Virus record (IMG/VR): IMGVR_UViG_3300046810_000233
Span: 1-34,136 of that record
Length of the DNA: 34,136 bases
Source: a virus
Strand: one strand, 5' to 3'
A program made the translations under genes and the position numbers. Shown here one piece after another: positions 3,612 to 30,154 of the stretch; positions within the stretch are counted from its first letter, which is position 1; each line of letters starts with the position of its first letter. A model generated the notes under the pieces. It was given only the letters and a program-made list of their open reading frames with translations. It was not told where the DNA came from and did no database searches.

Positions 3612-5137
3612 GGTGGCTCCTGGCCTCCGCCTACAGCCATCCCAAACATCTCGCTTAGAGAAGTAAAACGCCACGATGAGTAGCGATCAAGGTTCGAGTC
3701 CCTTAGGTACATGGTTCTAGTTACCATGGCATCTACGGGTATCAAGAAGTAGTCGAGACACTCGCCTGTATCGCCGTGTATTCGGCTTGTGATGACAAAG
3801 TGTATGCCGACCTTTCTGGTGACTCTCCAATCCGGTGAAGCGCCCTTGGGCCTGCGCATTGCAGCCACCTCCACACGAACACGCAAGTCGCCATTTAAAT
3901 TCAAAGTGAAGGGGGCTCGCATACGTTCGGTAGTGGCGCCAGCTGCATGGGCCAGCACCTCCACTTGTGAAAATATGCTCTCCCGAATCGGCAGCAACTT
4001 CTTTTTCGTGTCAACGAATGCGTACATGAGGGAGCGCGGTAACCCAGCCGCATCATATGCGCGTACTAGCGAGCCAAATGCTCGGGAGAACAGCTGCGGA
4101 TCTGGCATGTTGGGGTCTTTCGCAATGATCTGCGCGTTGACCTTACCGTGCCGTCGGTAGCAAGCCTGAAGAAGCGAAATTAGTTCAGAAGCAGAGTAAC
4201 GTCGCATTCTGCGTGCATGCTCAACCTGCACGGCTTCAAAAAGCGCCGGCGGTACAATCGGATCGATCGCGGCCAGGTTCACGACCCACTTGTCAGGGGC
4301 ATTACGCCTTCGTGGTTTGGAGAGCTTGGATGAACAGCGATTGAACGCGAGAGCGCCGCAGTATTTGACGTTGGTCAGCAGGGAGTTGACCATGTTTTGA
4401 GTCCAGGGCCGATCAAATTCGTTAGGAATATTCTCGCTGTTGAGTACTCGCGCGATGCCCGCTTGGCTCAAGCCTTTGTCCAGGTAGAGCGAATAGACCC
4501 GCCGAACCGTAGCAATCTCGCCCTCTGGTCCCTGGACAAGAATCACACGGTCTGTCGTAGAGCTTTTCTGTTCGCCGTACTCTAGTATCGCTCTCGGTGT
4601 TCCATTGGCCTTCAAAGCGAGGCGCCGAAGCCCAAATCCCGCATGCCCACCTTGCTTGAACCCCATCTCGATAAATCGGGACTGGGCCGCGAACACCTTC
4701 TCGGACAACTCCCGGCTGTACTCTGCGGCCATGACCCGCTTCATGCTTTTCAGAAGCGACGTGAACGGCCCCCCGTCGTTGGCGAACTTCTCAGCGCAGT
4801 ACACCACTTCGATGCCAGCACGTCGGCAAGTGTGCTCGTGGTACGCAGCCTCATCAATGTCCTGGAACCGTCCCCAGCGACTGATGTCGTAAACGATGAT
4901 GTGGCTGAAGTCAGGCTGCGCTGACTGAACATCGTTCATTAGGGACCGCAGGCCAGCACGTCGCTTGATGTCGAGACCGCTCTTCCCATCATCGACATAC
5001 TCACGAATGACGCGTAGGCCACAAGCGGCAGCGTACTCCCGAATCTTCGCACGCTGGTGATCGGTCGAGTAATCCTGGCGCTCTGTCGACATACGGACGT
5101 ACATCACAGCGCGGTTGGCGGAACACTGGACCATCAT
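3605..5137 (-). CDS. Serine recombinase (resolvase/invertase catalytic domain plus Recombinase domain)
   Basis: A site-specific DNA recombinase of about 510 residues. N-terminal catalytic domain: VMYVRMSTERQ with the probable catalytic Ser, the arginine-bearing YDISRWGRFQD, and AAEYSREL. It is followed by a Recombinase domain (MGFKQGGHAGFGLRR, LTNVKYCGALAFNR) and a C-terminal part of some 200 residues without the usual Cys4 zinc ribbon. The start is placed at the twin ATG 5137/5134 behind GGGGG. A TTG at 5182 is in frame but has no ribosome binding site. It is the first gene of a coupled pair with the amber-bearing paralogue. It probably moves this element or an island nested in it. Serine recombinases seldom use tRNA sites, so its link to the tRNA fragment is unclear. 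Confidence 0.9.
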   Translation of the reverse strand: MMVQCSANRAVMYVRMSTERQDYSTDHQRAKIREYAAACGLRVIREYVDDGKSGLDIKRRAGLRSLMNDVQSAQPDFSHIIVYDISRWGRFQDIDEAAYHEHTCRRAGIEVVYCAEKFANDGGPFTSLLKSMKRVMAAEYSRELSEKVFAAQSRFIEMGFKQGGHAGFGLRRLALKANGTPRAILEYGEQKSSTTDRVILVQGPEGEIATVRRVYSLYLDKGLSQAGIARVLNSENIPNEFDRPWTQNMVNSLLTNVKYCGALAFNRCSSKLSKPRRRNAPDKWVVNLAAIDPIVPPALFEAVQVEHARRMRRYSASELISLLQACYRRHGKVNAQIIAKDPNMPDPQLFSRAFGSLVRAYDAAGLPRSLMYAFVDTKKKLLPIRESIFSQVEVLAHAAGATTERMRAPFTLNLNGDLRVRVEVAAMRRPKGASPDWRVTRKVGIHFVITSRIHGDTGECLDYFLIPVDAMVTRTMYLRDSNLDRYSSWRFTSLSEMFGMAVGGGQEPPC

Positions 5138-5249
5138 GCCCCCATTGTTGAGGTAGCTCAATAACTCGAAAGTTAAGGTCAAAGACTATATGAGGATGAG
5201 CTATTACGCCGCACGGCTCATGCTACCGAAGTCTGTCAATGACGATCCA

Positions 5250-9469: not shown

Positions 9470-10467
9470 CCAACCTTCTTGAACAGAATCTCGAAATAAA
9501 CTTCCGTGGCCGAGGCGCTCGCAGGCTGAGCCGGGCCTGCGCTGCTGCCAGTGGTGTAGCGGCGCAGCTGGAAAACTTTCGGCGTCGCGATGGTGAACTT
9601 GCCTCGCAAGATCGCCCGCGAGGTGTCGCTTGAAGAGCTGTTGCTCGAACTCGATGTGCCGTAGTCCGTGTAAGCGGTGTCCGTTACGCTGTAGAGCATC
9701 GCCTTGTGGGTGAGGGCGCTGCCGTAGGCCACGGTGGTCCCCTCGTATTCATATGTGCCAGCCGGCAGCGTGACTTGATTGCTCGCCAGCGAAGCGCCAG
9801 AAATCTCGTTGACCTTCACCGTGTTCAGCACGCACTGTACGACGCCGAACGCGCCTGCCGAGGACGATGCCGTGCCGCTGGGCTGCTCTTCGCGTACATA
9901 CAGAATCGGGAACGTAGCAGCGCTGCCGGTATCGCCCTTGTCGCCGGTGCGCTGGAAGGACAGCACGACCTGGTCCGCCTGAGCGAAAGGACTTGCTGCA
10001 CTAAATGCCACACACGCAACCGTGAACTGTCGATAGCCGGCGGGCGTGGTCATCGCGGTCAAGCTGAACACGAGAAACTTCGACGCATCGCCTGCTTTCT
10101 CAATGCGAATCTGGCCGAGCGATGTTGTACTGGTCGAATCGTCGAAGGTGTTCAGCAGGTTTGTGTAGTCGATATTGTCAGATCCGACGACATCCGTAAC
10201 TATGGCAGTGGCTGCGTTTTGCGTCGCGCTGTTCAGCCGCAGCCAGCCAGCGGTCGGGTCCGCCATCGTCGTACCCAGGTCGACCTTGTAGGGGACCTTG
10301 TTGGCACCGCCCGCAGCAGAGATGTTCATGCTGGCTTCGGTTGCGTTGATTTGCTGGAGCGCGACCGGTAAGTCCTGCATGAAGCCGGCCATGTTGTTAT
10401 CGAACGTCTGCTGATCCTGTGTTCGCGCGGGCATCGAGGATGGATCGAGGAATTTGGTGATCGCCAT
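9466..10467 (-). CDS. Tail fibre or receptor-binding protein
   Basis: 333 residues. The N-terminus is helical and Gln/Asn-rich, the middle contains TGDKGDTGSAATF, a short collagen-like turn often found at fibre joints, and the C-terminus is strand-rich with a Ser-rich loop (GTSSSSNSSSSDTS), suggesting a trimeric jelly-roll head. It follows directly on the gene at 10467-12038 and ends where the accessory gene starts. It is the best candidate for host recognition. No enzyme motif is seen. Confidence 0.6.
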   Translation of the reverse strand: MAITKFLDPSSMPARTQDQQTFDNNMAGFMQDLPVALQQINATEASMNISAAGGANKVPYKVDLGTTMADPTAGWLRLNSATQNAATAIVTDVVGSDNIDYTNLLNTFDDSTSTTSLGQIRIEKAGDASKFLVFSLTAMTTPAGYRQFTVACVAFSAASPFAQADQVVLSFQRTGDKGDTGSAATFPILYVREEQPSGTASSSAGAFGVVQCVLNTVKVNEISGASLASNQVTLPAGTYEYEGTTVAYGSALTHKAMLYSVTDTAYTDYGTSSSSNSSSSDTSRAILRGKFTIATPKVFQLRRYTTGSSAGPAQPASASATEVYFEILFKKVG

Positions 10468-12038
10468 TAAACGGCACCTCCGATTGTGAGATTCATGAGC
10501 GAGCGAGTCGCGTACTGGATGACGTTCTTGAAGCTTTCATACCGGCCGTAGACCGCCGTGCTGCCGTACGGCCCACCAACCCAGACGACCGGCTTTTGCC
10601 GGATTTCAAAGAGACGCGCCTGCAGGTAGTCGATCTGGTCGTTGTCGACCATGACGTCACAGCTCATACGCTTGGCGTACGGCCGAATTACGGTGCTACT
10701 GGTGCCGTCAAAGTTGAAGGTCGTGCTCGAGTAGTCCTTGCCCTCGGTCGACAGCCCCCTCAACGTTGGTCCGAACTCCTCGACCGGGCCGATCGCGCAC
10801 ATGCCGCACTTGGCCGTGCCGCCTATCTTGCGCAGGCTGATCGTTACCAGGGCGTTGGCGTAGACCGGTAGCCTCAGGGTCAGGAAGTAGTCTTTGCGCT
10901 TGATTCGCTTGAAAGCCCAGTTGAAGAACGAGCTACCCGAATTCAATTCGACAAGCGATTTCGTTTCACCGTATACCCGGCCCTCCACTTTGTCGACGAC
11001 GCTGATTCGCACCTCGTCGGCAAACAGATTACCCAGGTACAGGCCCTGGCTGATCGCTTGCGGCGACAGCACGAGTAGGACCTCGTCAGGGTTGCTCGTC
11101 TGAGTGTTGTTGTACTGGTCCAGCATGGCCCAGCGGTTCGTAGCTCCTCGCGGCGTCCAGGCGGTCGTGTCGGTTGGCGCTTTGTTGACGTTACTGGCGA
11201 TGAGCGACTGGTAGACGCTATGGGTCGCGGGGTCGTAGACCTTGTCGTCCTTGGCATAGGTAGTCGACGTGCTGTACGTCGGTTCGACGATCGTCACGTT
11301 GGAATACACCAGGCCGGCACCGGCACCAATGACGTCGGCAGGGCGGGTGGCAGCTGCGCCAGCGGTCTGGACATAGCTGGAAGGCGCTGAACCAGTTTCG
11401 ATCTGGCACATGGTGATGTACACGTCAACGGGTGCTGCCATGGCCCTATTGAGAAACACCACCGGGTACACGCCACCAGTGCTGCCTACAGGCTGACCGT
11501 CCGGGCCTGCACCTGAGATCCGGCTTAGGCGCCCCACGAACTGTGCCGAGTTAGACGCGCTGAGAATAACCTGCGTGAAACCGCTGTGGCCGGTGAAATA
11601 CACGGCGATTTCCTCGGTGCCGGTAAGGGCCCTCGACAGGCTGACAAAAGCACTCCACGCGTACGTAACCTGCCCGGTGACGGCTGCGGGCGTCGTCCCG
11701 GTGCGCTCTGCCCGGCAGTTCGCATAGCCCGATGTCATCGCCGCGTCAAATGTTAGCTTAGCGCAGGCCTTGCCAGCGTACGAGACCGCTGAGGCGTAGC
11801 CAGGCGGGGTCGATCCAACCAGCGCCCATGCGTCGCCGCTCTCACTGTACGGCAGCAGGTTCGTTGCGGCCGGCTCGACCAGTGCGTACGGCGCTTTCGT
11901 CAGATCGCTCGGGTCATAGGTCACAGCCAGAGTGTTGGCCGGCACCTGTACGAGCGTGCCGGTGCGGTCATATACCCACTTGGGCGACGCGCGTGTACAG
12001 GCCACATCGCCCAGGGTTACGGGGTCAACAATAATCAT
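10467..12038 (-). CDS. Large tail protein with carbohydrate-binding features
   Basis: 523 residues from ATG 12038, preceded by AAAGGA and overlapping the tape measure stop as ATGA. The N-terminal half holds a jelly-roll-like region (about 75-215) of the type found in carbohydrate-binding domains. Around 265-300 is YAKDDKVYDPATHSVYQS followed by PTDTTAWTPRG, reminiscent of chitin-binding CBM5/12 modules. It is the first gene after the tape measure, so it probably builds the tail tip. No lambda M, L, I or J relative is present, and this protein may replace several of them. Confidence 0.6.
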   Translation of the reverse strand: MIIVDPVTLGDVACTRASPKWVYDRTGTLVQVPANTLAVTYDPSDLTKAPYALVEPAATNLLPYSESGDAWALVGSTPPGYASAVSYAGKACAKLTFDAAMTSGYANCRAERTGTTPAAVTGQVTYAWSAFVSLSRALTGTEEIAVYFTGHSGFTQVILSASNSAQFVGRLSRISGAGPDGQPVGSTGGVYPVVFLNRAMAAPVDVYITMCQIETGSAPSSYVQTAGAAATRPADVIGAGAGLVYSNVTIVEPTYSTSTTYAKDDKVYDPATHSVYQSLIASNVNKAPTDTTAWTPRGATNRWAMLDQYNNTQTSNPDEVLLVLSPQAISQGLYLGNLFADEVRISVVDKVEGRVYGETKSLVELNSGSSFFNWAFKRIKRKDYFLTLRLPVYANALVTISLRKIGGTAKCGMCAIGPVEEFGPTLRGLSTEGKDYSSTTFNFDGTSSTVIRPYAKRMSCDVMVDNDQIDYLQARLFEIRQKPVVWVGGPYGSTAVYGRYESFKNVIQYATRSLMNLTIGGAV

Positions 12039-15000
12039 GCAGTCCTTTCTGCCGGCATGCCGGTTGCATCCCACTTCTCCAATGCCTCGCCGGCCTGCTG
12101 CGTACCTTTGGCGATGCCACGGTTCTCGGCGCTATTCGCTTCCTTGAACTGACGCACTTCGTCGCGCAGCGCCTTGATCTCAGCGACCAGTGCAGCGCTG
12201 TCACCGCCGCCGGCTCGCGCCAGCAGCGCCGCAGTCTGGTTGCTGCTCCAGATCCGCGACGGCCCGGTAGCTTCCAGTTCGGGACCGTTCTCGCCAACGA
12301 TGCGCAGGCCGCCGCGGAACAGGCCACCGGACGCAAAGCCAGGGATGCCCAGCTTTCGCTGGTGATCCTTGTACTCCTGCGAGCTCATGAAACCCAGGCG
12401 GATAGCATCGAGGCTTTCGCCCTTCGCCAATACCCCTTGCCAGTACTGGAGGCCAGCCTGATCCGGAGCCCGGCCGAGCAGGTCCTGGTAGAAGCCGGCG
12501 ATGGTTGCCGTGCCGCCCACGACCGGGTTCGACTGCGCCGAGCCGATCGACGACTGGAACGCTGCCATGGCTTGCGCCAGGGTCAGCGTTGCAACCGACT
12601 GCCCGTTCAGCGCATCGATCTGCGCTTGACCATTTGCCACGATGTCATCGAGGCGCTTGATCTGCTCCTGCAATGCATCGAGCGAGCGCTGCTCCACCGT
12701 GAGCTGATCGTCCGTCAGGTCGCCCAGCTGCGCGATGTCGGCCTGGGTTTGGTACAGGTCGCGCAGGTAGTCGGTGTACGAGCTGAATTGCGAGCTCGCG
12801 TCCTGCGTTACCGCGCTCAGGGCGTCCTTTAGGCTATCGGCATCTGGCAGCGGGCCGCCGGCCTTGGCAATCGCCAGCGCAGCGCGGATCTGCGCCTGGC
12901 CGAACGCACGCTCTGCCACCTTCTGGTCCGGAGACTTGAGGCTGTCGAGCGTGCTGCGCAGGGACTGCGACAGCGACTTGAGCTTATTGAGGGCAGCAGT
13001 GTGCGAGTCGACTGACGATTGGATCGCCGACTTCTCGCGTGACACGACCTTCTGCAGCGCCGAGTAAGCGTCGTTGACGCCGGCGAACATCGTGCTGGCT
13101 GCATCCTTCACGGCCTGCATCGCTGCCGCTGCCTTGTCGACCGCTTCGGCCGCCGCATCCGCTGCCGGGTGCACCTGGGCGAATGCTTCCGCCAGGGCCA
13201 GCAGAGAATCCAACTGCTTCGCGCCCGACTCGGTCGGTGCGGCGCCGGAAGTAATCAGGCTGTTGACCAAGGCCTTGAACTCGTCCCTGGTGGCAGGGAT
13301 TGTGCTGAGGCCTAGACTCGACAGCGCCTTATCCAACGCCTCGGCTACTGGCTTGATCCGCTCCGCATCCGTCAAGAAGTTCTGGTTGAAGAACGCCGCT
13401 TGGGACGACAGAGCCGACAGGCCGCCGGCCATGTCGATCAGCTGTTCGCGCGCCTTGGCAGACCCGATGCCGGCCTCACCGAACAACTGCGAGGCAGAGA
13501 AGCCCAGCAGCTGCGCGATCTGGTCCGTGCCGCGGAAGTCTGTCGCCAGCCGCTCGAGCGCCGCCGATGCGGTCTCACCCGACTTCGACAGCTCGCCCAG
13601 GTTCGGGACCAGCTTCTTCGCGATCTCGTCGCCGATACCACTGAAGAAGTCCGTGACGGCCTGCTGATCCTTGCTTGCGTCGCCGGTCAGCTTCAGATCG
13701 AAGACTTTCGAATAGTCCTTGATCCAGTCCGCTTGCACACCCAACGACATCGCGAAGCCGGACGACGCCGACTCGATCGCCGCAAGACCTTGGGTGAACT
13801 GCTTGACCATTGCATCGGTCAGCGCTTTGGTGTCTGTCCCGTTTTTATCCGAGCGGAACCAGCCGCCATCCTGATGCCAGGCCGAGTAGCTTTGACCAGT
13901 CAGGCTCGACGCCGACAGCGTGCCGCTGATGCCCTGGTCACGGATCTCCTTTGGGCCCATGCCGAAAGCGCGATTTGCAAGGCCGCTAATTGCGCCGGCA
14001 ACAGCGCCACCAATGGGCCCGAAGATGGCACTCGCAACAGCAGTGCCGATCTTCTCGGCCGTCATAACGCCTGAGCCAGTTTCGTACTTGCCAGAGATCG
14101 CCGAATTCAGCGTAGAGCCAATCCCATAGCCCGCAAGCGTGCCGCCGACCTGCCCAGCCCAGTATGCGGTTGGCGTCAGCGCCTGGCCGCTCGCCGTGGC
14201 GTAGCCCTGAGACGCCAGCGGGTTGTATCCCGCCGCTGTCATGCCCTTTTGCACGCCGCCGGCAATCAGATCAGGGATGCCGCTCAGGCCGCCGGTAATC
14301 GCCTTGTACATACTCGATGCTGCTTGAGCTGCACTGATCGGGTTCGTGCTGTCGTTCGTCACCCCGTAGGCGTTTGGTTGGCCCGCGATTTCGCCGGCGA
14401 TCGCCGTTTGGCTTACACCCAGGTAGCTGCCGACCAGTTGAACAACGATCGGTCGAGCGAACATTTTGTAGATCGAGTCAGCTACCGTCGTCTTGAACGT
14501 CGTGACGAGCGATCGGGTGAACGACTTCCAGCCGTCCATGCCGTTGTTCAGCATGTCAGCAAAGCCCTGCTGGAAGACTTGACCGTACTGATCGACGGCC
14601 AGGCGCCATTGCGTGACCATCTGATCCTTGTAAGATCCACGCGTCTGCGCGTCGCCGAGGTCGCGCAGCGCTTGAGCCTGTTCTCGATAAAGCTTCGCCA
14701 GCTCTTCGCCCCCTGGGATAGCGTCCTGCGCTGCCGCAGCTTCTTCCTTGAGTGCTGCTGCATTCTGCAGCCGCGCCGCTCGCAACTCGGCAACCTGGGT
14801 CGTGCTCAGCCCGATCTCTTGGTTGTACTGGAACTGTGCTTCGACTTGGGCGATCAGGCCGTCACGCTCTGCCGTTGCGGCGACGATGCCACTACGATCA
14901 AGTGCGTCAGAAAGCTGCCGGCGCCGATCCAGCAGAAGTGCCAGATCGTTTTCTCGCTGCTGCTTTCGACTCGCTCGCTGCTCATCGAGCACGTCGAGCT

Positions 15001-19824: not shown

Positions 19825-20385
19825 TTAGAGGTAGACGCGATACCTGTCGAGCAATCGACACAGGTGCTGCGAATTAGGGTTGGGGGCATAGTCGTTTTCA
19901 AGCTTGCCGAGGATGTACTGCTTGATCGCAGCCGGTACGTCGTCAGTACTCGGACCGAAGCCCGCCACATACTGCACCTCTACGGCGTTGATGCGTGCCG
20001 TGGTCGCAGGCCAGGCTTTGCCAGGCGCCGGCACGATGTAACCCGGCTCGCTTTTGGCATCGACTAGGTAGTCTTCTGGCGAAAGCGCTCGCAATACGCC
20101 GGCGGCGTCGTAGAACTTCACGGATAGGACACTGACAACAGGTGACTTCGTCAGCTGAATCGCTCCAGGCCCGCCGCGTAGTCCAACCGGGAACGCGTCG
20201 AGCGCCTCCTCCCAGGTCTGATTGACGAAAGCCCGGTTGGTCTCGTACTCTGCTTCCTCTGTGAAGCCCTGCACTTTGCCGGTGATTTCGTTGTCGAGCG
20301 CAGTGCCGCTTGCTCGAGCTTGGCGTCGTGCAGCTTCCATCGATACCGCCAGTGCGCCTGGAGGCGAGATCAGTCGTGTGCTCAT
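19825..20385 (-). CDS. Head-tail connector protein (gp6-like)
   Basis: 186 residues from ATG 20385, overlapping the previous stop as ATGA. The C-terminal two thirds carry the gp6/gp15-type connector pattern: FVNQTWEEALDAFP, SVKFYDAAGVLRALSPEDYL, VEVQYVAGFG and AAIKQYILGKLENDY. Connectors form a ring below the portal. The much longer upstream frame is a shadow of two other genes and is not used. Confidence 0.85.
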   Translation of the reverse strand: MSTRLISPPGALAVSMEAARRQARASGTALDNEITGKVQGFTEEAEYETNRAFVNQTWEEALDAFPVGLRGGPGAIQLTKSPVVSVLSVKFYDAAGVLRALSPEDYLVDAKSEPGYIVPAPGKAWPATTARINAVEVQYVAGFGPSTDDVPAAIKQYILGKLENDYAPNPNSQHLCRLLDRYRVYL

Positions 20386-20576
20386 CGGAGATTCCTTCGG
20401 GTTGCCGCCAGCCGCACACCAGTGTCCGGCGCTCCGGAGGCAGATGGGGCCCGCGCGTATTCTGCCGGCCCCGCTTCTTGGCCTGCAGCTGGTGCTCCAC
20501 CAGGCGGATGCTCCGCCTTTCGAAGCGTCACGCCTTCTGGCGCGGTGTACAGGATTGGGTAAATCGGATCCGCCAT
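20382..20576 (-). CDS. Small phage protein of unknown function
   Basis: 64 residues, MADPIYPILYTAPEGVTLRK, with GGGAGG before the ATG. The C-terminal half is Ala/Pro/Gly-rich and disordered. It shares its MADP start with the next upstream protein and is coupled to both neighbours by overlaps. Possibly a minor head or head-surface protein. Confidence 0.55.
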   Translation of the reverse strand: MADPIYPILYTAPEGVTLRKAEHPPGGAPAAGQEAGPAEYARAPSASGAPDTGVRLAATRRNLR

Positions 20577-20908
20577 CAGTGATCCTCCCTGACAAACCAA
20601 ATGGTGCGGTCGATTTGCTCCCCGTTCGCGCAGTAAAGCCGCACGGTGCAGAAGTTCGCCGCGTTGTTCGCCAAGTCCAGGCCGCCCAAGTAGGCGATGA
20701 CGTCGGTTCCGGAAACTCGCAGATTGGAGATCCCATCCGGATGCGTCGCCAGGCTCACGCCGCCGCAGATCGCGATCGGCGGCTTGGTCGGATGAGGCGA
20801 TGTCTGGGAATCCGTCAGATCTTTTGCGAAGCCGAACTTGTAGAAGCGGATATCGTCCGGGTCCTTCGGCACAGTCCACTTGCCGTTTGCATATGTTGGA
20901 TCAGCCAT
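20576..20908 (-). CDS. Phage head-region protein of unknown function
   Basis: 110 residues, strand-rich (MADPTYANGKWTVPKDPDDI, then DVIAYLGGLDLANNAANFCT). The start overlaps the upstream stop and the end overlaps the next ATG by one base. It lies in the virion-surface insert between capsid and connector, so a structural role is likely. No family recognised. Confidence 0.55.
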   Translation of the reverse strand: MADPTYANGKWTVPKDPDDIRFYKFGFAKDLTDSQTSPHPTKPPIAICGGVSLATHPDGISNLRVSGTDVIAYLGGLDLANNAANFCTVRLYCANGEQIDRTIWFVREDH

Positions 20909-21105
20909 TAGAAATTCACCCTGTTGGTTCCACCATCAAAATTCGCGCGGTTCGTTCCACCGCCAAAGTCCACCCGATTGCTCCCGCCGTCGAAATCCAC
21001 CGATCGGGACGGCGGGACGACAGTTCCACCCGGCGCATCCCCTAATGCCTGCGCGCCGCCCTGGTCACCGATGGATGCCGCACCGACTGGATAAAAGCCA
21101 AGCAT
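20908..21105 (-). CDS. 65-residue protein ending in nine-residue tandem repeats
   Basis: Starts at ATG 21105 with AAGGAG just before it. The N-terminus MLGFYPVGAASIGDQGG is of a kind often found in small phage head proteins. The C-terminus is three copies of a nine-residue unit (VDFDGGSNR, VDFGGGTNR, ANFDGGTNR) plus a final VNF. The regular Phe, Gly-Gly and Asn-Arg spacing suggests stacked beta turns, perhaps a short fibre tip or a polymer-binding strip. Function unknown. Confidence 0.6.
   Translation of the reverse strand: MLGFYPVGAASIGDQGGAQALGDAPGGTVVPPSRSVDFDGGSNRVDFGGGTNRANFDGGTNRVNF
20911..21000 (-). repeat. 27-bp coding tandem repeat, three copies plus a third
   Basis: Units at 20974-21000, 20947-20973 and 20920-20946, then 9 bp of a fourth (20911-20919). 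Third-base differences between units show that the repeat is not brand new and that the protein pattern has been kept. Confidence 0.7.
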
Positions 21106-21114
21106 GCGGGCTCC

Positions 21115-22809
21115 TTAAGTAACAGGAATGGCGTCAGGGGTTGGCAGGACCGGCCGGCCATTAGTCATCAGGTCGAGACCGCTGCAGCCCTCGGGATAGC
21201 TCACGTTGTCGACGATCACGTTCGACACGTCCGGCCCCATGCCGCCGCCGTGCTGGATGGTGACGGGGTAAACCGGCGAGCCCGACAGGGTTAGCGTCAC
21301 GGTGTTCGCGCTGGCGATCGCCACGGCGGCCGTGATGGTCGCGCCCGTGTTGTCCTTCACGCTCCAGCCGGTGATCGGCTGGCCGGCTTTGCGCAGCACC
21401 AGTGCGCTTCCGCCATCGTGGGCGACGTTAACTGTGATGACGTTGCCGGCCCGCGTGGCGCTCGTTATCTTTGGTCCAAGCCCTGTGAACGAGGCGCACT
21501 TGACCATGTACTTGACGGCCTGCGTCAGGCGCTTCACGCTCATGCGGCGGTACTGCATGCCGCCGGCGACGTCTTGGAAGTGCAGGCCATCGCCGCCGTC
21601 GCGCGGGTCGAGATCGAGGCAATTCCAGCCGGCGCGCACCAGGGGCCAGTTGTTCGCGCGGGCGTAGGCGTCGAGGTCAAGCACGGCTTTTCGCTTACCT
21701 TCGACGTTCGTTATGCTGGCGTAGACGCCCGGCACGGCAGGCAGGAAAAACAGGGTTGACGCATCGCGGCCGAACGGCACCACGTATTCGAGCAGCTTTC
21801 CGTAAAGAGTTTTAAGGCGACCGAGGTATGTCGGGCCGTCCATAGCGTCATCGGCTTCGTTCTGGTGCCACACGCAGCCTTCAAAATCGCCGGCCCAGTA
21901 ATCACGGGTCGACTTGAAATTCACAGTGCCGGCCCTGGCACCCGTGCCCAGGAACAGGCCGTCATAAGCCGCGCCGCCGGGCAGATAGTAGTCGATCGAG
22001 GTTGCACCGAAGGCCCAAGGGATCAGGCAGACCGGAACGTCCTTGCCGTATTTCGCCTTGAGGCCTGCGGCCACGATCCGGACAAACGACAGCGTGCCGC
22101 CGTACGATGGGCCGGCATCGCTGCCGCTGCTGGTGCTACCGGTAGACACGCTCGTCGCGCCGGTTGACACGAAGCCTGCAGCGGTGCCGAAGAACACGCC
22201 GTTCCCGTTCTGCTCGTAGTATTCGACCTCTTTAAGCGAGGTGCCCGGCACGATATCGAACGGCCCGTCGGCGCTCAGGGTGCCGACCATGTTCGACTGG
22301 CCCATCGCAAGCACGCACACGCCCACACCCCAGCGTTGTGCGCCGCTGCTGTTCGTGGCGCCATTGGATGGCTGCTGACCATCGCGGATCTGCAGCAGGT
22401 AGCCGGCGCCGGCCGGAACAGCCGCGAGCGTGCCGAGGCCGGTCGAGCCGACGACGGAGACGTTTGCGAGCGTCGTCCAGTCCTTGACCACGGCGCCGCC
22501 AACGGCCTTGATGACGCGGGCCTGCGGATAGCTCGGCGCGCCGCCGGCGAACGTGAACAGGACCGGCATGTCGGCCGAGCCTGCGTTCGTGTCATCGTAG
22601 GTACCAGCCCTGCGTTGCACGACTGGAAAAGCCAGTGCGTGCGCGGTCTTGAAGTCGGTCAGGGTCAGCGCAGTCGTGGTGCTCGTGCCGGGGATTGGCG
22701 GGTCGCTGGCGACAGGTATGCCGGTATCGGCCCCGAGCGGGGCGTCGACGAACCCACGGGCGCCGGCCAGCACGAAGCGGCCCGAGGCGTCGATCAGGAC
22801 GCGCGCCAT
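21115..22809 (-). CDS. SGNH-hydrolase (carbohydrate-esterase-like) virion protein
   Basis: 564 residues. Residues 163-174 hold VCVLAMGQSNMV with Ser172 as nucleophile. WHQNEAD at 314-320 is a block III-type motif and GGDGLHF at 405-411 gives the DxxH pair Asp407/His410. This is the sialate O-acetylesterase/SGNH pattern, used to remove O-acetyl groups from glycans. Residues 1-160 are strand-rich and could attach it to the virion. Residues 440-540 look like a beta-sandwich. The gene is coupled to the FnIII fibre gene (one-base overlap) and lies between capsid and connector genes, an unusual place for a glycan-active enzyme. Substrate unknown; O-acetylated capsule or LPS is plausible. Confidence 0.8.
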   Translation of the reverse strand: MARVLIDASGRFVLAGARGFVDAPLGADTGIPVASDPPIPGTSTTTALTLTDFKTAHALAFPVVQRRAGTYDDTNAGSADMPVLFTFAGGAPSYPQARVIKAVGGAVVKDWTTLANVSVVGSTGLGTLAAVPAGAGYLLQIRDGQQPSNGATNSSGAQRWGVGVCVLAMGQSNMVGTLSADGPFDIVPGTSLKEVEYYEQNGNGVFFGTAAGFVSTGATSVSTGSTSSGSDAGPSYGGTLSFVRIVAAGLKAKYGKDVPVCLIPWAFGATSIDYYLPGGAAYDGLFLGTGARAGTVNFKSTRDYWAGDFEGCVWHQNEADDAMDGPTYLGRLKTLYGKLLEYVVPFGRDASTLFFLPAVPGVYASITNVEGKRKAVLDLDAYARANNWPLVRAGWNCLDLDPRDGGDGLHFQDVAGGMQYRRMSVKRLTQAVKYMVKCASFTGLGPKITSATRAGNVITVNVAHDGGSALVLRKAGQPITGWSVKDNTGATITAAVAIASANTVTLTLSGSPVYPVTIQHGGGMGPDVSNVIVDNVSYPEGCSGLDLMTNGRPVLPTPDAIPVT

Positions 22810-24314
22810 CAGGTCAGCACCAGGCCGACCGGCGTGCCGGTGCCGTTGTCGTACGGTTCAGCCGAGCCGTCCGAGTAGAACAGCCACAGGTCGAAGGTTC
22901 CACCTGTAGCGCTCCATATGAACAGCGAGCCGTTGCCGTTGGTGCTGTACAGGCCGTAGTATCCGTTGCTGTTCGGCGTGTCGCCGTCGCCCCAGCCGCC
23001 CAGGCGGGTAAGTGCACGCTTCTGGCCGTTCTGCGTATAGGTTGCCAGGTCCGGCTTGACCGGAACGCCGCCGCTGCGCTTGCTCCATGCCACTTGGACG
23101 ACCTCGGCCGCCAGTGCAGCCGTGCCAGCAGGAGTGCGGACATACAGACTGACGTCGGCGGCATAATAACCGTTCGTCGAGATGTTGCCCGGCGCTGGGT
23201 AGACCACAGCCGCGGCGCCGCCTTTACCGTCTGTGTTGTACATCGCGTACTTCGTGTCCATGCCTGCTGCAGCAGCGTTGGTCGTCACGCTGGCCGACAG
23301 CACGTTCGAGCGGTTGCCGGCGGCGTCGTATGCGCGTACGCGCAGGTTGTACGTGGTCGATGCGGTGGCGCCCGTGATGGCGCGCGAGGTCACGTTGCCG
23401 GCGTCGCTGAACGTCGTGCCGCCGTCGGTGCTGGTCTCGTAGCCAGTCACGGCGACGTTATCGGTGGCCGCCTGCCAATTCATCGTGTAGCCGGTTGCGG
23501 TGACGTTGGTCGTGGTCAGGCTGCCGGCCAGATTCGGCGCCGTGGTGTCGCCGCTCGCAGCGGCAGTCGTGACGGACAGCGACAGCGGGGCCGCCTTGTT
23601 GCCGGCGGCATCGAAGGCGCGTACGCGCATGGCGTAGACGGTCGACGCGGTCAAACCGGTGTAGGTGTAGCTGAGGACAACGCCGAGCGCCGTATAGGTC
23701 GTGCCGCCGTCCTTGCTGACTTCGTAGCCAGTGACGCCGACGGCGTCGGACGCCGCCGACCAATTCAGCGTAGCCGCGGTGGCGCTCACGTTCGCCGACG
23801 TCAGCGAACCGTTCATCGTCGGCACCGTAGTGTCGCCCGGACCGCCGCCCGTACCGCCCGGCAGCAGGCCGGCCGCCACGGTGACGACGCCGTTGTTCGC
23901 GTCCAGGCCGAGCAGCTTCGTGGAGGCCGAGACACTCGACAGCGCGGCCAGCTGCGCCGGGGTGATACCATCGGCCGTCGAGAGCAGCGACGCGAGAAAG
24001 GAGCCCGGAACGGTGTTGAAAACGGTCTTCGTGCTGGTGTTCGGGAAAGTCACGGCAGCGCCGTCATTCGAACTGGCCGTAACCGACGTGCGCGTCAGCT
24101 GGGTCGCGCTGGTGAGGGTGTACATGCCCTCTTCCCAGTTTCCGGCATTGTCCTCGACCATGAAGCAAACACCTGTATCGCCAGCCGTCAAGGCATTGCC
24201 TGCAATGGCCTTCGCCACGGAGCGGAAACCGGCGACCGGGCCGAGGAGCGTGATGGTGCTCGTGCTGGTGGCGGAAGTCGCCATCAATTCCTTGACTCGG
24301 GTTGCAAATTTCAT
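22809..24314 (-). CDS. Virion fibre protein with two fibronectin type III domains
   Basis: 501 residues. Residues 1-105 are a fibre N-terminal module (SATSTSTITLLGPVAGFRSV, then NWEEGMYTLTSATQLTR), common in phage fibre proteins. A Gly/Pro linker leads to two FnIII domains (about 161-251 and 256-346), each with the ATxxWxxAxD...VTGYE and RVRAxDAAGN patterns, and a C-terminal domain of 150 residues rich in Tyr, Trp and Gly (SLFIWSATGG). The two FnIII domains are similar and probably arose by duplication. Placement after the capsid suggests a head fibre or decoration that binds surface glycans with the esterase. Confidence 0.8.
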   Translation of the reverse strand: MKFATRVKELMATSATSTSTITLLGPVAGFRSVAKAIAGNALTAGDTGVCFMVEDNAGNWEEGMYTLTSATQLTRTSVTASSNDGAAVTFPNTSTKTVFNTVPGSFLASLLSTADGITPAQLAALSSVSASTKLLGLDANNGVVTVAAGLLPGGTGGGPGDTTVPTMNGSLTSANVSATAATLNWSAASDAVGVTGYEVSKDGGTTYTALGVVLSYTYTGLTASTVYAMRVRAFDAAGNKAAPLSLSVTTAAASGDTTAPNLAGSLTTTNVTATGYTMNWQAATDNVAVTGYETSTDGGTTFSDAGNVTSRAITGATASTTYNLRVRAYDAAGNRSNVLSASVTTNAAAAGMDTKYAMYNTDGKGGAAAVVYPAPGNISTNGYYAADVSLYVRTPAGTAALAAEVVQVAWSKRSGGVPVKPDLATYTQNGQKRALTRLGGWGDGDTPNSNGYYGLYSTNGNGSLFIWSATGGTFDLWLFYSDGSAEPYDNGTGTPVGLVLT

Positions 24315-24325
24315 GCTTGGCCTGT

Positions 24326-24406
24326 CTATCCGTTCAGCCGGCCGGCGATAAACGCCAGCAGCTCGTCGTCGGTTTTCCCGACTATGTCTTCAGGGAAGAT
24401 CGCCAC
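24326..24406 (-). CDS. 26-residue ORF with GTG start
   Basis: GTG at 24406 follows AAAAGGGG. The product MAIFPEDIVGKTDDELLAFI... is acidic, helical and plausible, and ends 12 bp before the FnIII gene start. Short ORFs of this kind are frequent between capsid and fibre genes. Unknown role. Confidence 0.5.
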   Translation of the reverse strand: MAIFPEDIVGKTDDELLAFIAGRLNG

Positions 24407-24416
24407 CGATCCCCTT

Positions 24417-24497
24417 TTAGCGGGGACGGTGACGAGAAGAGCCGGCCGCCAGCTCGGCGCGCACGTTGGCGAGCCATGCGGCGGTTTCGGGGCTCAT
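24417..24497 (-). CDS. 26-residue ORF
   Basis: ATG 24497 begins MSPETAAWLANVRAELAAGS and ends in a basic tail. It lies between two equally small ORFs with short spacers, as in a compact operon. No family recognised; coding is judged from composition and packing. Confidence 0.45.
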   Translation of the reverse strand: MSPETAAWLANVRAELAAGSSRHRPR

Positions 24498-24501
24498 GGG
24501 A

Positions 24502-24654
24502 TTACTTCGTGGCGGCCTTGACCGCTTTGGCTTCCGCCTCGTACGGTTCCGCCACTTTGCCTTTGACGAGGGCTTCCGCCTGCTCAGCTTCGAAGCCGGC
24601 GATATCACCGGGGCTGTAGATCTTCCAGGGCTTGATGAATTTGACCGATTGCAT
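24502..24654 (-). CDS. 50-residue phage protein downstream of the capsid gene
   Basis: ATG 24654 is preceded by AAGGAACC. The protein starts MQSVKFIKPWKIYSPGDIAG and continues as an amphipathic helix rich in Glu, Ala and Lys. Small proteins with a KPWxxYxxGD-type start occur after capsid genes in many siphophages, where their role is unknown. Confidence 0.7.
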   Translation of the reverse strand: MQSVKFIKPWKIYSPGDIAGFEAEQAEALVKGKVAEPYEAEAKAVKAATK

Positions 24655-24716: not shown

Positions 24717-26036
24717 TTAAGCGCCCCAGGTAACGCCGGTCAGGATCGCGACCGATTCGACGTGGCGCGGGCCGAAGTCGTGCTTGGCGATCACGCGCAC
24801 CAGGGTTTGGTCACGCTGGAAGGCACTGACCATGTTGCCGTCGGTGTCCTTATAGGATGCCTCCTTCGAGTAGTCGATCATCAGGTTCTCGTCTTCACCG
24901 ATGAAGCAGTCGTTGAAGTCGACGAAGTAGATTTCCGACGCGTTCGAGCCGGCGCCGAGGTTGTTTGGCACCTGAGTGGTCTTGCCGATCGGGTAGCCCT
25001 TGAGATTCCCGTCCTTCATTTCCGGATAGACCTTGTTGCCGTTACCGTCACGCAGGCCTTCCAGGAAGCGGAAGGTACGCGGCGACATGATCCAGCCCGG
25101 CGCGCCCATGTTGGCATCGACGCCTTCCAGGCAAAGGATCAGCTTGTTCAGATCGGTCTCGATCTTCTGCAGCGTGTCGCCGGCCGATGCGGCGATCTTA
25201 AAGCCGGCCAGCGCCCAGGCCAGCAGACCCTTCGGCGTGTTGCTGGTGCCATCGTCGCGGATGAAGCCCTTGTCTTCGCGTGCCCCCATAGCCGACGAGA
25301 CGTCGTCCACGACGATACGGTCGACATTCGGGTTCGCGCCCGAGTAAGCCAGCAGATCGTTCGAGATCGGGACCAGGGCGGCGAGCTTTTTGCTCGACAG
25401 CTTCAGGTCATCGAACTGCTGACCGGTGACCGGGATGTCGTTCTCGGTGCCGATATAGCCAACGACAGCACCGCCCTTCAGGCGCGGCAGGGTGACGTTG
25501 CCATTGTTCAGGGGGAGCGAACGGGCGCCCAGCTTGCGCACGACCGATTTCGGACGCCACAGCTCAATGACCTCGCGGGCCATGTTGGTCGGCACCAGCA
25601 CGCCGCCGGCGCCAGGGGTCAGGGTGCTCAGGGCCATCGCGACGTCTTCGCCGAACTGGTTGTCCATCGCGAACTTTGCGGCGGCCTGTTGGTTACCTTG
25701 GGCGGCGACCAGTGCGCGGACCATGCGCGACAGGCCGGCGCCTGGCACCTCCGCGGTGCGCGGGGTAGCGGGCACGCTTGCAGCCGGCGGGGCGGCCGGC
25801 TGGTGAGCGCGGCCGTGTGCTTGGTCGACCGGCACCGCGGCGGCAGCGGCGATGCTTTCGGCAGCTTCCATGCGGGTAATCTGTGCAGTCAGGTCGGCGA
25901 ACTTGGTCTGCAGGCCCGTGAACTCGGTCAGCTGTTCGGCGGTCAGTTGGCCGCCGTCGGCTTCGATCTTGGCCAGTGCTTGCACGCTGGCGTTGACCTT
26001 GGCGCGTTCGCTGCGGAGCTCGTTAATGGTTGGCAT
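24717..26036 (-). CDS. Major capsid protein (HK97 fold)
   Basis: 439 residues from ATG 26036, with AGGAGAGAG upstream. Residues 1-75 form a coiled-coil delta domain (MPTINELRSERAKVNASVQAL), residues 75-115 are an Ala/Pro-rich linker where the S49 protease probably cuts, and the rest is the HK97 shell domain (GGVLVPTNMAREVIELWRPKS, LPRLKGGAVVGYIGTEND, PIGKTTQVPNNLG, ILTGVTWGA). It self-assembles with the portal and protease into the procapsid. Strong terminators on both sides fit high expression. The longer frame to 26303 overlaps the protease gene and is rejected. Confidence 0.95.
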   Translation of the reverse strand: MPTINELRSERAKVNASVQALAKIEADGGQLTAEQLTEFTGLQTKFADLTAQITRMEAAESIAAAAAVPVDQAHGRAHQPAAPPAASVPATPRTAEVPGAGLSRMVRALVAAQGNQQAAAKFAMDNQFGEDVAMALSTLTPGAGGVLVPTNMAREVIELWRPKSVVRKLGARSLPLNNGNVTLPRLKGGAVVGYIGTENDIPVTGQQFDDLKLSSKKLAALVPISNDLLAYSGANPNVDRIVVDDVSSAMGAREDKGFIRDDGTSNTPKGLLAWALAGFKIAASAGDTLQKIETDLNKLILCLEGVDANMGAPGWIMSPRTFRFLEGLRDGNGNKVYPEMKDGNLKGYPIGKTTQVPNNLGAGSNASEIYFVDFNDCFIGEDENLMIDYSKEASYKDTDGNMVSAFQRDQTLVRVIAKHDFGPRHVESVAILTGVTWGA

Positions 26037-26103: not shown

Positions 26104-27063
26104 TCAAAGTTGGTTTTGGACCGCCATCGCTTTCGCGCGGGCGCCGATGGAAGACTGTTTGGTATTACGCGATGCGCGTGTCTGGCGAGCTTGGGCGGCG
26201 ATGCGGTCAGCTGCAGCCTGTGGCGTCTCAATACGGTCGGCAAAGCCGATGTCGAGGCCGGCCTGACCAAACAGTACGCCAGCTTCGGTGCCGCGAACTG
26301 CATCTACACCAATCCCGCGGTACTTGGCGACAGCGTCGACGAATTGCCCGTAGTAGTTCTGCACCATGTCATTGAGGAACTTCAGCGACTGATCCGAGAG
26401 AGGTTCATGGGGGCTCAGATCGTTTTTGTGGGCGCCGGCATACACGGTCGTCACCTTCACACCCATCTGCTCGTTTCGAGCTGAGATGTCCATGTGTTTG
26501 GCGATCACGCCGACTGAGCCGACACCAGAGGTACGCGACATCGAGACGTCGCCGATGGCCGCGGCCATCAGGTAGGCGGCCGAGTACGCACTGAAATTGA
26601 CGATCGCGCTCATCGGCTTGATGGCCCGGGCCTCGAATAAGAAGTCAGCCAGTTCGAAAGCGCCGGTCGTACTGCCGCCAGGGCTGTCGATGTCGAAAGC
26701 GATGTGCTCAACGGCCGGATCCGCCAACGCCGCAACAACTTGGGCGCGGATATCCTCGTAGCTGGTCATCGTCTCACAGACGTTCAGTTGGGTGCTGCGA
26801 CTGACAAGGACACCGTGAATCGGGATCATCGCAACGCCAGTATCGGCGATCGCCTGGCGGCGCGCTTCCTCGGCGCGCGCTGCGGAGCTCTCGTACGGGC
26901 CGTCGTCTTCCATCATCTGCGGCTGGGCGCCGTTGACGCTCAGGTTGACGATGTTCAGGCTCATCTGCTGGTTGGCCCAGGCCGCAACCTGGTCGAGCAT
27001 CGCCTCGGTGACCATGAGCGGCTGGTTGAAGATGAGACTAGCGAGGCGGAAGCGGTTTTTCAT
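26104..27063 (-). CDS. Capsid maturation protease (S49/ClpP-like, SppA family)
   Basis: 319 residues. PIHGVLVSR begins the core, DSPGGS (126-131) forms the oxyanion loop, Ser161 in NFSAYSAAYLMAA is the nucleophile and Lys213 in YAGAHKN is the likely base. This is the Ser-Lys dyad of S49 peptidases, as in lambda C, which cleave capsid and scaffold during maturation. It overlaps the portal stop by four bases. Residues 260-319 are helical and basic and could serve as a scaffolding tail. Confidence 0.92.
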   Translation of the reverse strand: MKNRFRLASLIFNQPLMVTEAMLDQVAAWANQQMSLNIVNLSVNGAQPQMMEDDGPYESSAARAEEARRQAIADTGVAMIPIHGVLVSRSTQLNVCETMTSYEDIRAQVVAALADPAVEHIAFDIDSPGGSTTGAFELADFLFEARAIKPMSAIVNFSAYSAAYLMAAAIGDVSMSRTSGVGSVGVIAKHMDISARNEQMGVKVTTVYAGAHKNDLSPHEPLSDQSLKFLNDMVQNYYGQFVDAVAKYRGIGVDAVRGTEAGVLFGQAGLDIGFADRIETPQAAADRIAAQARQTRASRNTKQSSIGARAKAMAVQNQL

Positions 27064-28304
27064 GCGAGGATTCCTTCAATTTCGGCGACTGCTTCGGGGC
27101 TTGCCTTGGGCTGTACGACCGGCAGCGGCTTAGCCGCGTCGACCATGTTGAGCGGCTGCAGGTAGGTGTCGCCGCCCTTCACAGGCGGCAGGTTTTCCAG
27201 ACGCCGGATGTCGTTCACGGACAGCCAGCCCCACTGGCGGGCGATCGCGTACGCCTCATAGCGAGACTTCTGATCGCCGCGCAGCAGTCCGGAGACGTTG
27301 AACTCGATGTAGTAGGTATTGCGCTCGCTTGGCAACAGCAGGTCGCGCATCATCGCCTGCTCGTGCCGCTTGATCCACGGCAGAAGCGTGTAGATCACGA
27401 ACTGGATGGCCTGGTGCTCGATATTCGAGAACGTGGCCTTGTCCAACTCGCCGATCATGTGCGGCGGCACCTTGTAGATGCGCGCGATGTCCAGCGCGCT
27501 CAGCTTCAGCGCCGAGATCAGCTCGGCGTCGACGTTTGTCATCGACAGCGCGCGGAAGGTCATCCCCTCCTGTAGCATGGCGACGCGCTTGGCATTGGCG
27601 GCACCGCTGTACTTGGCTTGCCACTGGTCCGTAATGCGGTCGATGACCGATGGATCCTTGATCGGTGGCGCCTCGCGCGGCCGCTCAATCACGCCCGACA
27701 GCGCCGTCCCGTTCAGGAACGACTTCCCTGCATATTGGTGCATTGCCTGGGCATGCCCGATGGCGTTAGCGTGCAGCATGATCGGCGAGACGCCGACGTA
27801 GTTGTTCAGGCTCCACCATCTCACGTGGTGGATCATGCGCTGTGGGACCGGCTCTTGTCCGTCGATACTGAAATACGGCTGGAGGTCCGGCCCGCGCATA
27901 ACCTGGACCGAGTTCGCCGGCAGCGGAAGCAGGTCCGTAACAGTGCCGTCGGGATCGCGCGCAATGATGCTGTACGAATTACCGCGCGTGCCCGCCGACA
28001 GCTGCGACCCCTCACGGTATTCGAGCGGCGTCTGCCAGCCATTCGGTCTGTAGGCTAGGACGTTGTATAGCGGGTGATCCTTCGCCGCCTCCCGTCCTTC
28101 GTCTTTGGTGCGTCGGAAGAGCTCGAGTGGCAGTTGCGCGATGCTCTCGGCCAGCAGCGTCACGCAATTCTGCAGCGCTGTCATCGCAAGTGCGGACTCC
28201 ACGGTGACCAGTGGGCCGGCATCGGAACGGGCGCCGCCGAGACCAGACAGCCAGCCACCGCTGCCGGTAGCAATCTGCGGACTGAAAAACTGTTTGGCGA
28301 ACAT
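27060..28304 (-). CDS. Portal protein (HK97 type)
   Basis: 414 residues. Typical blocks: LPLELFRRTKDEGREAAKDH, GNSYSIIARDPDGTV, PQRMIHHVRWWS, AGKSFLNGTALSGVIE, and LDIARIYKVPPHMIGELDKA followed by SNIEHQAIQFVIYTLLPWI. These are the hallmarks of HK97-family portals, the dodecameric ring through which DNA is packaged. It lies between terminase and protease, as in HK97-like gene orders. The C-terminus is short. Confidence 0.95.
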   Translation of the reverse strand: MFAKQFFSPQIATGSGGWLSGLGGARSDAGPLVTVESALAMTALQNCVTLLAESIAQLPLELFRRTKDEGREAAKDHPLYNVLAYRPNGWQTPLEYREGSQLSAGTRGNSYSIIARDPDGTVTDLLPLPANSVQVMRGPDLQPYFSIDGQEPVPQRMIHHVRWWSLNNYVGVSPIMLHANAIGHAQAMHQYAGKSFLNGTALSGVIERPREAPPIKDPSVIDRITDQWQAKYSGAANAKRVAMLQEGMTFRALSMTNVDAELISALKLSALDIARIYKVPPHMIGELDKATFSNIEHQAIQFVIYTLLPWIKRHEQAMMRDLLLPSERNTYYIEFNVSGLLRGDQKSRYEAYAIARQWGWLSVNDIRRLENLPPVKGGDTYLQPLNMVDAAKPLPVVQPKASPEAVAEIEGILA

Positions 28305-28307
28305 CCG

Positions 28308-28481
28308 TTATCCTTTGTTGCCGGCTGGCGCCTGCGCGCGTGCGACGACGTACGACCAAGCCATCAGGCCGAGACCAGCCACGATGAAGCCGGCCGGCAG
28401 GTAGACCATGCCGGCGCCGATGACAATGGAAGCCAAGCCCAGAAAGCCGGCAATGAGGGTCGCCCAGTCGAGAATGCTCAT
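28308..28481 (-). CDS. 57-residue membrane protein between terminase and portal
   Basis: ATG 28481 overlaps the terminase stop as ATGA and the gene ends three bases before the portal start. Two hydrophobic segments (about 7-23 and 26-45) make it a small two-helix membrane protein. Small membrane proteins occur at this locus in other phages, with unknown role. It is shorter than usual gene-calling limits but packed like a real operon member. Confidence 0.65.
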   Translation of the reverse strand: MSILDWATLIAGFLGLASIVIGAGMVYLPAGFIVAGLGLMAWSYVVARAQAPAGNKG

Positions 28482-30154
28482 ATCGTTACGCCCTCGTCGT
28501 AGATTGAAGTAGCCTGCGCTGCCTCGGGATTCATTGACATCAGCTCGACCGCGTTGAGCATCGCCATCAACGGGTCGATCTTGGCCGAACCGGAGATTTG
28601 TTTGGTGATCAGCACGGCGTTACCGCGGGGCTCGACCTTGGCATTGCCGACGCACCATGCCATCAGCGGCTGCGCGCCATGCACAAATACACCTTCAGCC
28701 AGCTTCCTCTCGGCCGTCTTGATTGGCCCGGTCAGCTTCCAACCCTGCGAAATGCCGATGATGCGGTCCTCAGGAACGCCGGCCTGCAACATCGCGTCGA
28801 GGATGCCGCCGATGCCGCTGGGGTCGATACCCATCTTGAAGAGCAGTCCAGACTCGTAGACCTTGGCGACATTCGCGGCAAATTCGTCGACGTCGTCGCC
28901 GATGCGCTGCACAAGGGTCAGATGCCCGTCCTTGGCGAAGTCCAGGAGCCGGGGCGCGATTTCCTTGCGGCGCTCTAGCACAGAAGGGTGCGCCCAGGCG
29001 TGCGCCCATCCGAGCCACCGCCGCGTCTCCTTGCAGCGCCCGATCGCGTATTGGCCAAGCAGGTCATCGAGACCGCCGCCGTCGCCACCCATGGCGACCA
29101 CTTCCGAGCGCGCAACAAGGTCGTCCAACGAGAACGTCCGCTCAAGCTGGCCCTGCTGCTCCCAGAAACCCGCGCCGGCCCAGCGGTCGGACCGTAGGTT
29201 GAGGCCGATTTCGACGTTGGCGTGCTTGGCCATGAAGCCCCGGAACGATTCCGGGCCGGCTTGCTGTGCTTTCGTGAACTCGCGCTCGAGGAAAGCCTGG
29301 TCGACGGAAAAGCCGATGTTCGGGTTCACCATCGCCATGTTCTCAAGCAGCAGGCATTCGCCCGAGGCCACCATTTCCGGCGGATGCTCGAAGATGATCG
29401 GCACGAAGGCGGGGTCAACGATCTCGCCATCGCGCACCTTGCGCGCATACTCCAACTTCTGTTTAAAGACGCCGGCCGGCGGTTCGTCGGACTGCGTCGT
29501 CAACCAGATCACGAAGCCTTCAGGGCGAGATGCCAGGCCGCCTAGCGCCTCACGGAACATGTTTTCAGCACTCGACATTTTGCCGAATAGGTGCAGCTCG
29601 TCGATCAGGGTGCCGACTGACTTCTTGCCGCCGACCGTGTTTTGATCGGCCGCCAACACCTTGAGAGTCGAGTTGCTTTCGCGGTGTGTAATCTTTTTTT
29701 CGTGTGACTGCACATGCATCAGCGCGTCGAGCTCTTCGTCCTTCTGCACCATGTCACGCGCCGGCGTGTATGCGTTGTTTGCCACCTCGACGGTCGGCGC
29801 CAGCACCGAGAACTCCGCCGACTGGCGCCAGTTCAGGATCAGCGCCGTCAGCATGATCCCGGCCGCAACCGTCGACTTCGAGTTCTTTTTCGGCAGGAGC
29901 ACAAAAAATTCGACGATCAGTCGCCGGCCGCTCTCCGCGTCGTAGGCGCCGAAAATGCAGCGCACCAGGTCAAAAACCCATTCAGCGCAGGATTCGCCGA
30001 AGGTCGGGCTGCCCGGCGCGTCAACGATCTTGAGTTCCTTGAAAATTGCGAGCGCTTGCTCGGCCTGCTCAGGGAAAATCGGCGGCGGAATGATCGTCGT
30101 GCCGGCGAGCAGGCGCGCTGCCCAGTCAGGGCATGCTGTTGTCCAGTCCGGCAT
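28478..30154 (-). CDS. terL: Terminase large subunit
   Basis: 558 residues. The N-terminal ATPase has a Walker A-type loop PKKNSKST (88-95), Walker B GTLIDE (181-186) and a coupling motif in WLTTQS. The C-terminal nuclease has the acid clusters VVAMGGDGGGLDDL and FKMGIDPSGIGGI. It is the packaging motor and DNA-cutting enzyme, acting with the small subunit and portal. The large size and P-K-K-N-S-K-S Walker A fit the HK97/P27-like terminase group. The start MPDWTTACPDW sits directly after the small subunit stop. Confidence 0.95.
   Translation of the reverse strand: MPDWTTACPDWAARLLAGTTIIPPPIFPEQAEQALAIFKELKIVDAPGSPTFGESCAEWVFDLVRCIFGAYDAESGRRLIVEFFVLLPKKNSKSTVAAGIMLTALILNWRQSAEFSVLAPTVEVANNAYTPARDMVQKDEELDALMHVQSHEKKITHRESNSTLKVLAADQNTVGGKKSVGTLIDELHLFGKMSSAENMFREALGGLASRPEGFVIWLTTQSDEPPAGVFKQKLEYARKVRDGEIVDPAFVPIIFEHPPEMVASGECLLLENMAMVNPNIGFSVDQAFLEREFTKAQQAGPESFRGFMAKHANVEIGLNLRSDRWAGAGFWEQQGQLERTFSLDDLVARSEVVAMGGDGGGLDDLLGQYAIGRCKETRRWLGWAHAWAHPSVLERRKEIAPRLLDFAKDGHLTLVQRIGDDVDEFAANVAKVYESGLLFKMGIDPSGIGGILDAMLQAGVPEDRIIGISQGWKLTGPIKTAERKLAEGVFVHGAQPLMAWCVGNAKVEPRGNAVLITKQISGSAKIDPLMAMLNAVELMSMNPEAAQATSIYDEGVTI

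Follow-up and report, generated by a model that had tools for sequence, protein, structure and literature searches.

The window, i.e. the whole stretch of DNA analysed here, comprises 34,136 bases of an IMG/VR virus record. Its structural genes are all found on the minus strand, in the order terL, portal, protease and capsid, then a block of other genes, then gp6, head-tail adaptor, gp10, tail terminator, tail tube and tape measure. Around 4.3 kb separate the capsid from gp6, and this interval holds orf50, a frame-shifted small ORF, an FnIII fibre, an SGNH esterase, a nine-residue-repeat protein, orf110 and an ORF with the YARAP peptide. The genes and features are as follows:

28478-30154, minus strand: terL
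27060-28304, minus strand: portal
26104-27063, minus strand: protease
24717-26036, minus strand: major capsid protein with the HK97 fold, which borders the interval on its left (PF05065, 172.6 bits; phrog_10)
24502-24654, minus strand: orf50, a conserved ORF of 50 aa (phrog_38773; in nearly all loci)
24326-24497, minus strand: remnant of a conserved ORF of about 60 aa, MSPETAAWLANVRAELA...EDIVGKTDDELLAFIAGRLNG (three-frame translation)
22809-24314, minus strand: fibre protein of 501 aa with a fibre-type N-terminal domain, two FnIII domains and a C-terminal domain (two stretches matching fn3, PF00041)
21115-22809, minus strand: predicted SGNH/SASA carbohydrate acetylesterase of 564 aa (Pfam SASA, PF03629, 30.1 bits, cut-off 24.8; S172-D407-H410)
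20908-21105, minus strand: nine-residue-repeat protein of 65 aa, a possible stalk or linker (repeats read directly)
20576-20908, minus strand: orf110, an Ig-like protein of a family related to the GP4 fibre-tail adaptor gp77 (model pLDDT 93; best PDB match 8jou_B; homologue in L036 above the PF23148 cut-off)
20382-20576, minus strand: tiny ORF whose tail contains the conserved YARAP peptide, directly ahead of gp6 (strict pattern)
19825-20385, minus strand: gp6-type head-tail connector, right border of the interval (phrog_442 head-tail adaptor, E 3.1e-17)

This map bears out an earlier sequence-only reading of the window, which described an insertion of about 4.3 kb between capsid and connector relative to the HK97-like gene order and listed as its parts an SGNH esterase, a double-FnIII fibre, a nine-residue-repeat protein and several tiny ORFs, all of which are present. 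Elsewhere in the window there are two neighbouring large serine recombinases (2112-3494 and 3605-5182) with PHROG integrase matches, the second of which has an additional weak match to an HNH-associated repeat. Near the end of the record, on the opposite strand, lies a 321-aa ORF (763-1728, plus strand) that had no match in Pfam, PHROG or PADLOC.

A capsid search of IMG/VR gave 52 loci, in which we mapped the window genes and called ORFs between capsid and connector. Of the relatives whose capsid identity is 78% or higher, 27 have the interval complete, and in every one of them it is occupied by 2.9-5.0 kb of co-oriented ORFs. This set includes two near-duplicate pairs as well as an Oxalobacteraceae sp. 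CFBP 13730 prophage (L065; capsid identity 82%), whose payload is of the SGNH type. In the outgroups, namely L034 (capsid identity 74%), Paludibacterium L067 and L068, L066, phiKO2, BgVeeders33, RcapNL and SC_9, it measures 0.2-0.9 kb. The block is therefore a property of one clade, and its clade-wide occupation is more than chance.

Median pairwise identities among the genomes of 21 cassettes were 85% for capsid, 83% for portal, 57% for gp6 and 56% for tail tube, and a median of 8% of the cassette could be aligned at all between pairs. Less than 25% of the cassette is shared by 46 of the 59 pairs with capsid identity of at least 90%. L022 and L051 have DNA that is 87-89% identical as far as position 11783 of L022 and once more from 13422 onwards, with unrelated payloads of 1.6-1.8 kb in between, and likewise sharp edges were seen in the comparisons of L004 with L037 and of L012 with L035. 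The block is a hypervariable exchange locus which is maintained across the clade. Variation through a diversity-generating retroelement was rejected, since the reverse transcriptase PF00078 was absent from all 17 records and was found in three control genomes; recombination between conserved flanks is thus the likely source of variation. Pfam families detected in 42 large cassette proteins were SASA (12), fn3 (6), GDSL_2 (4), the lectin-like LamG (3), BNR (2), Gp77 (2) and GH28 (1), and to judge by these matches the common theme of the payloads is putative carbohydrate binding or modification. The role at surface glycans that was proposed earlier is plausible.

The flanks of the exchanged region contain several small ORFs. 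On the left side orf50 always adjoins the capsid gene, outgroups included. The ORF of about 60 aa next to it carries a single frameshift in the window, either a sequencing error or decay, and is intact in L004 and L031. In many of the loci L003-L052 a conserved ORF of about 90 aa (MTHLHM...STIRVYD...YERRGRMKT), absent from the window, is situated between orf50 and the payload. On the right side the strict YARAP pattern was found in 25 of 28 complete capsid-gp6 intervals and in none of the 11 outgroup loci. The peptide is encoded either by a separate ORF or as part of the last cassette protein (capsid-gp6 intervals of L002-L065), and in the loci without orf110 (L009, L010, L012, L013, L029 and L035) it ends that protein. 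The repeat protein consists of three units, FDGGSNRVD, FGGGTNRAN and FDGGTNRVN, and a strict pattern placed the repeat motif directly ahead of orf110 in seven other cassettes (L004, L016, L024, L025, L036, L037 and L052). For three proteins of the repeat type, sequence searches of the PDB yielded nothing useful.

Gly170-Gln-Ser172-Asn173, Asp407 and His410 of the SGNH protein are invariant in the five sequences that we aligned (the window, L001, L025, L055 and L031; identity 57-30%), in agreement with the active site of Ser172, Asp407 and His410 that had been read from the sequence. The catalytic Ser within GQSN and the Asp-x-x-His motif are those of SASA/CE20-type SGNH acetylesterases. The best PDB matches in Foldseek were 7kmm (the carbohydrate acetylesterase XAC1771, E 2.5e-13) and 8f9p (a sialic acid esterase), with CE20 enzymes likewise high in the match list, which we took as support for the fold only because the whole-protein model is poor (mean pLDDT 47). 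From the SASA match, the invariant active site and the acetylesterase matches, the protein likely fits the SASA/CE20 acetylesterases, with O-deacetylation of polysaccharide as its predicted activity. It has the SGNH active site in common with XAC1771 (PDB 7KMM) and SIAE (PDB 8F9P) and, according to a low-confidence model, may share their fold; unlike them it is phage-encoded, has an extra N-terminal domain and a C-terminal beta domain, and is located within a fibre cassette. No tblastn match was found in 50,697 phage records, and phmmer gave a chance-level match only. Deacetylation of polysaccharide during infection would also be in common with the tail spikes of Pectobacterium phages PP99 and Possum and Acinetobacter phage Aristophanes, although those deacetylases are described, in the published titles and abstracts, as tail appendages, unlike the block.

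The N-terminal domain of the fibre is common to ten other proteins, some of them from an unrelated podovirus and from L055 (alignment A3). Most relatives of the domain, from isolates as well as from environmental genomes, carry the annotation tail fibre, a name given by homology, and in other phages genes with this domain come after tail-tube or portal genes, or near the capsid. It had no PHROG match and its profile no useful PDB sequence match, and tblastn in the 50,697 phage records matched the FnIII domains only. Classical tail fibres have a conserved N-terminus and a variable C-terminus; the window fibre shares its N-domain with relatives, but the fused cassettes conserve the C-terminus, which is the reverse order.

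The model of orf110 (pLDDT 93) has an Ig-like fold that corresponds to the one in 8JOU chain B. This chain, 8jou_B, from the entry for GP4 fibre I and the fibre-tail adaptor, is also its top PDB match in Foldseek (E 1.1e-3, TM 0.62/0.74). The window orf110 itself had no match to Pfam Gp77 (PF23148), its profile no useful PDB sequence match, and tblastn found none in the 50,697 phage records. Profile-profile comparison with Gp77-type relatives gave a probability of 55% only. It is 41% identical to the L036 homologue, which scores above the curated PF23148 cut-off of 27 bits (31.7 bits), as does the C-terminal domain of the L044 protein (39.7 bits), while L003, L047, L025 and L055 are below it. 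A record-wide search with a limit of E 0.001 detected Gp77 in 10 of 22 records compared to none of 14 control genomes. The orf110 family is related to gp77. Its domain recurs just before gp6, as a separate gene in the window, L016, L024, L031, L036, L037 and L052, fused C-terminally to a large protein in L005, L017, L020, L022, L027 and L051, and fused C-terminally to the repeat protein in L025 and L040. No correlation was seen between the divergence of orf110 and that of the capsid, the connector or the tail genes (rho no higher than 0.18); co-divergence thus does not point to a docking partner.

What is said here of podophage GP4 (fibre I and gp77; PDB 8JOU, PF23148) draws on the title of the PDB entry, on the name of the Pfam family and on PMC13243795. 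In common with it, the adaptor gene of the window stands beside fibre and repeat genes, and the fold of orf110 and its homologues match gp77. GP4 is, however, a podovirus, while the window is a siphovirus in whose relatives the adaptor is often fused to an enzyme, the location is between capsid and connector, and the payload is exchangeable.

Similar genes were also observed outside the main clade. In L055 fibre, SGNH, repeat protein and orf110 form a unit at 40.7-44.2 kb (also given as 9995-13529), on the opposite strand, amid DNA-metabolism genes and far from the recognisable structural genes of that phage. L055 has no detectable PF05065 capsid and has in common with the window the C-terminus of the tape measure and two tail-tip proteins. 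Its four-gene unit suggests transfer as a cassette. In the podovirus L001, whose capsid belongs to another family, the capsid gene is followed by one small ORF and then by fibre and SGNH. These two arrangements indicate that gene position alone does not fix the location on the particle. A similar layout is found in an unrelated phage, EBPR siphovirus 1 (L062), where the terminase is separated from the head genes by gp39-gp45, which comprise small ORFs and a 'glycosyl hydrolase' with FnIII.

Taking these results together, we regard it as probable, with some reserve, that the block is an exchangeable cassette for a virion appendage that docks via orf110, most likely on the neck or tail as in GP4. 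Its products would form an assembly like a side fibre, in which the payload would consist of the FnIII fibre together with the SGNH acetylesterase, the nine-residue-repeat protein may serve as stalk or linker, and orf110 with its gp77-like Ig fold, perhaps together with the YARAP peptide, would dock the assembly on the particle. Neck or tail is favoured because of the relation of orf110 to a fibre-tail adaptor. The fibre would bind host surface polysaccharide and the esterase would strip O-acetyl groups from it before irreversible adsorption, thereby aiding adsorption, and payloads would be swapped through homologous recombination between the conserved flanks, i.e. the orf50 side and the fn3/orf110/YARAP side. 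Presence in the virion, docking site, substrate and role in adsorption are what we infer for these proteins. A comparable module, gp34-gp36 of Alishewanella phage LSH1, consists of a lyase-like protein, an 8JOU_g-like fibril and an Ig-fold protein that are kept together, and was reportedly detected among the virion proteins by mass spectrometry (PMC13243795). It resembles the block in composition and in being present in only part of its phage's relatives; unlike the block, it lies downstream of the lysis genes. Counting against this reading are the lack of a podoviral tail nozzle in a siphovirus, the values for the window orf110 (no direct Gp77 match, E 1.1e-3, 55% probability), the missing correlation of orf110 divergence with any of the compared genes, and the conserved end in fused cassettes, the C-terminus, which is opposite to that of classical fibres.

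The sequence-only reading took the block for a possible decoration of the head, distinct from the tail fibres. In such a case the cassette would dock on the capsid lattice and display an exchangeable glycan-binding and deacetylating enzyme, similar in function to T4 Hoc. Gene position is the main argument here: the cassette comes directly after the capsid gene throughout the clade, and in podovirus L001 the fibre and SGNH genes are placed behind the capsid gene too. A capsid conserved at 85% would also give changing payloads an unchanging dock. That an esterase could in principle be carried on the head is indicated by T4 Hoc and the GDSL protein of phage PG7 (PMC10385173); in Hoc and Hoc-like proteins a conserved C-terminal part is joined to variable N-terminal modules, and the PG7 fusion is a precedent for a GDSL enzyme joined to a capsid-binding domain. 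However, the block proteins have no match to Hoc, its C-terminal capsid-binding domain or any head-decoration family in PHROGs and Pfam, and there is no Hoc entry among the Foldseek matches listed for orf110, which matches a fibre-tail adaptor instead. Relatives of the fibre N-domain are annotated as tail fibres and the L055 set is not beside a capsid gene. The claim that the block is head-borne and separate from tail fibres is consequently unsupported, and we consider a lattice-bound decoration doubtful; docking somewhere on the head is likewise a minority prospect.

A moron-type cassette that is not part of the virion, with esterase and fibre acting on the surface of the lysogen or released to deacetylate the host capsule, seems improbable. 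It would fit the predominance of carbohydrate-active payloads and the L055 set, which is surrounded by non-structural genes and lies on the opposite strand, but the genes of the main clade are co-oriented and tightly packed with overlapping ends in the late structural operon, orf110 is related to a fibre-tail adaptor, and the compositionally similar LSH1 module is reported from virions by mass spectrometry. Ordinary mosaicism of gene order, i.e. tail fibre genes encoded early at a site that is not special, is very hard to maintain. In its favour, other environmental phages do have fibre N-domain genes close to those for capsid, portal or tail tube, but here the same site is filled in 27 of 27 complete relatives, the flanks being fixed and the payloads unrelated, as expected of a maintained exchange locus.

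The appendage cassette that we favour would be an exchangeable fibre/enzyme module, a kind that is already known. If this reading is right, the locus is a natural plug-in site through which near-identical particles change their glycan-active equipment while the head genes stay conserved at about 85%. It would then raise the question where and how a podovirus-type fibre adaptor docks on a long-tailed phage, and the interval from orf50 to gp6, with the gp77-like domain and YARAP, would be a genomic marker with which carbohydrate esterases, lectins and hydrolases of phages could be sought. We also put forward, tentatively and as rather less likely than not to hold, a more specific idea: that the clade keeps a dedicated recombination locus beside the capsid, where a single dock (gp77-like domain and YARAP) on the head or neck, not the tail tip, would let unrelated carbohydrate-active enzymes be swapped while the particle stays constant.
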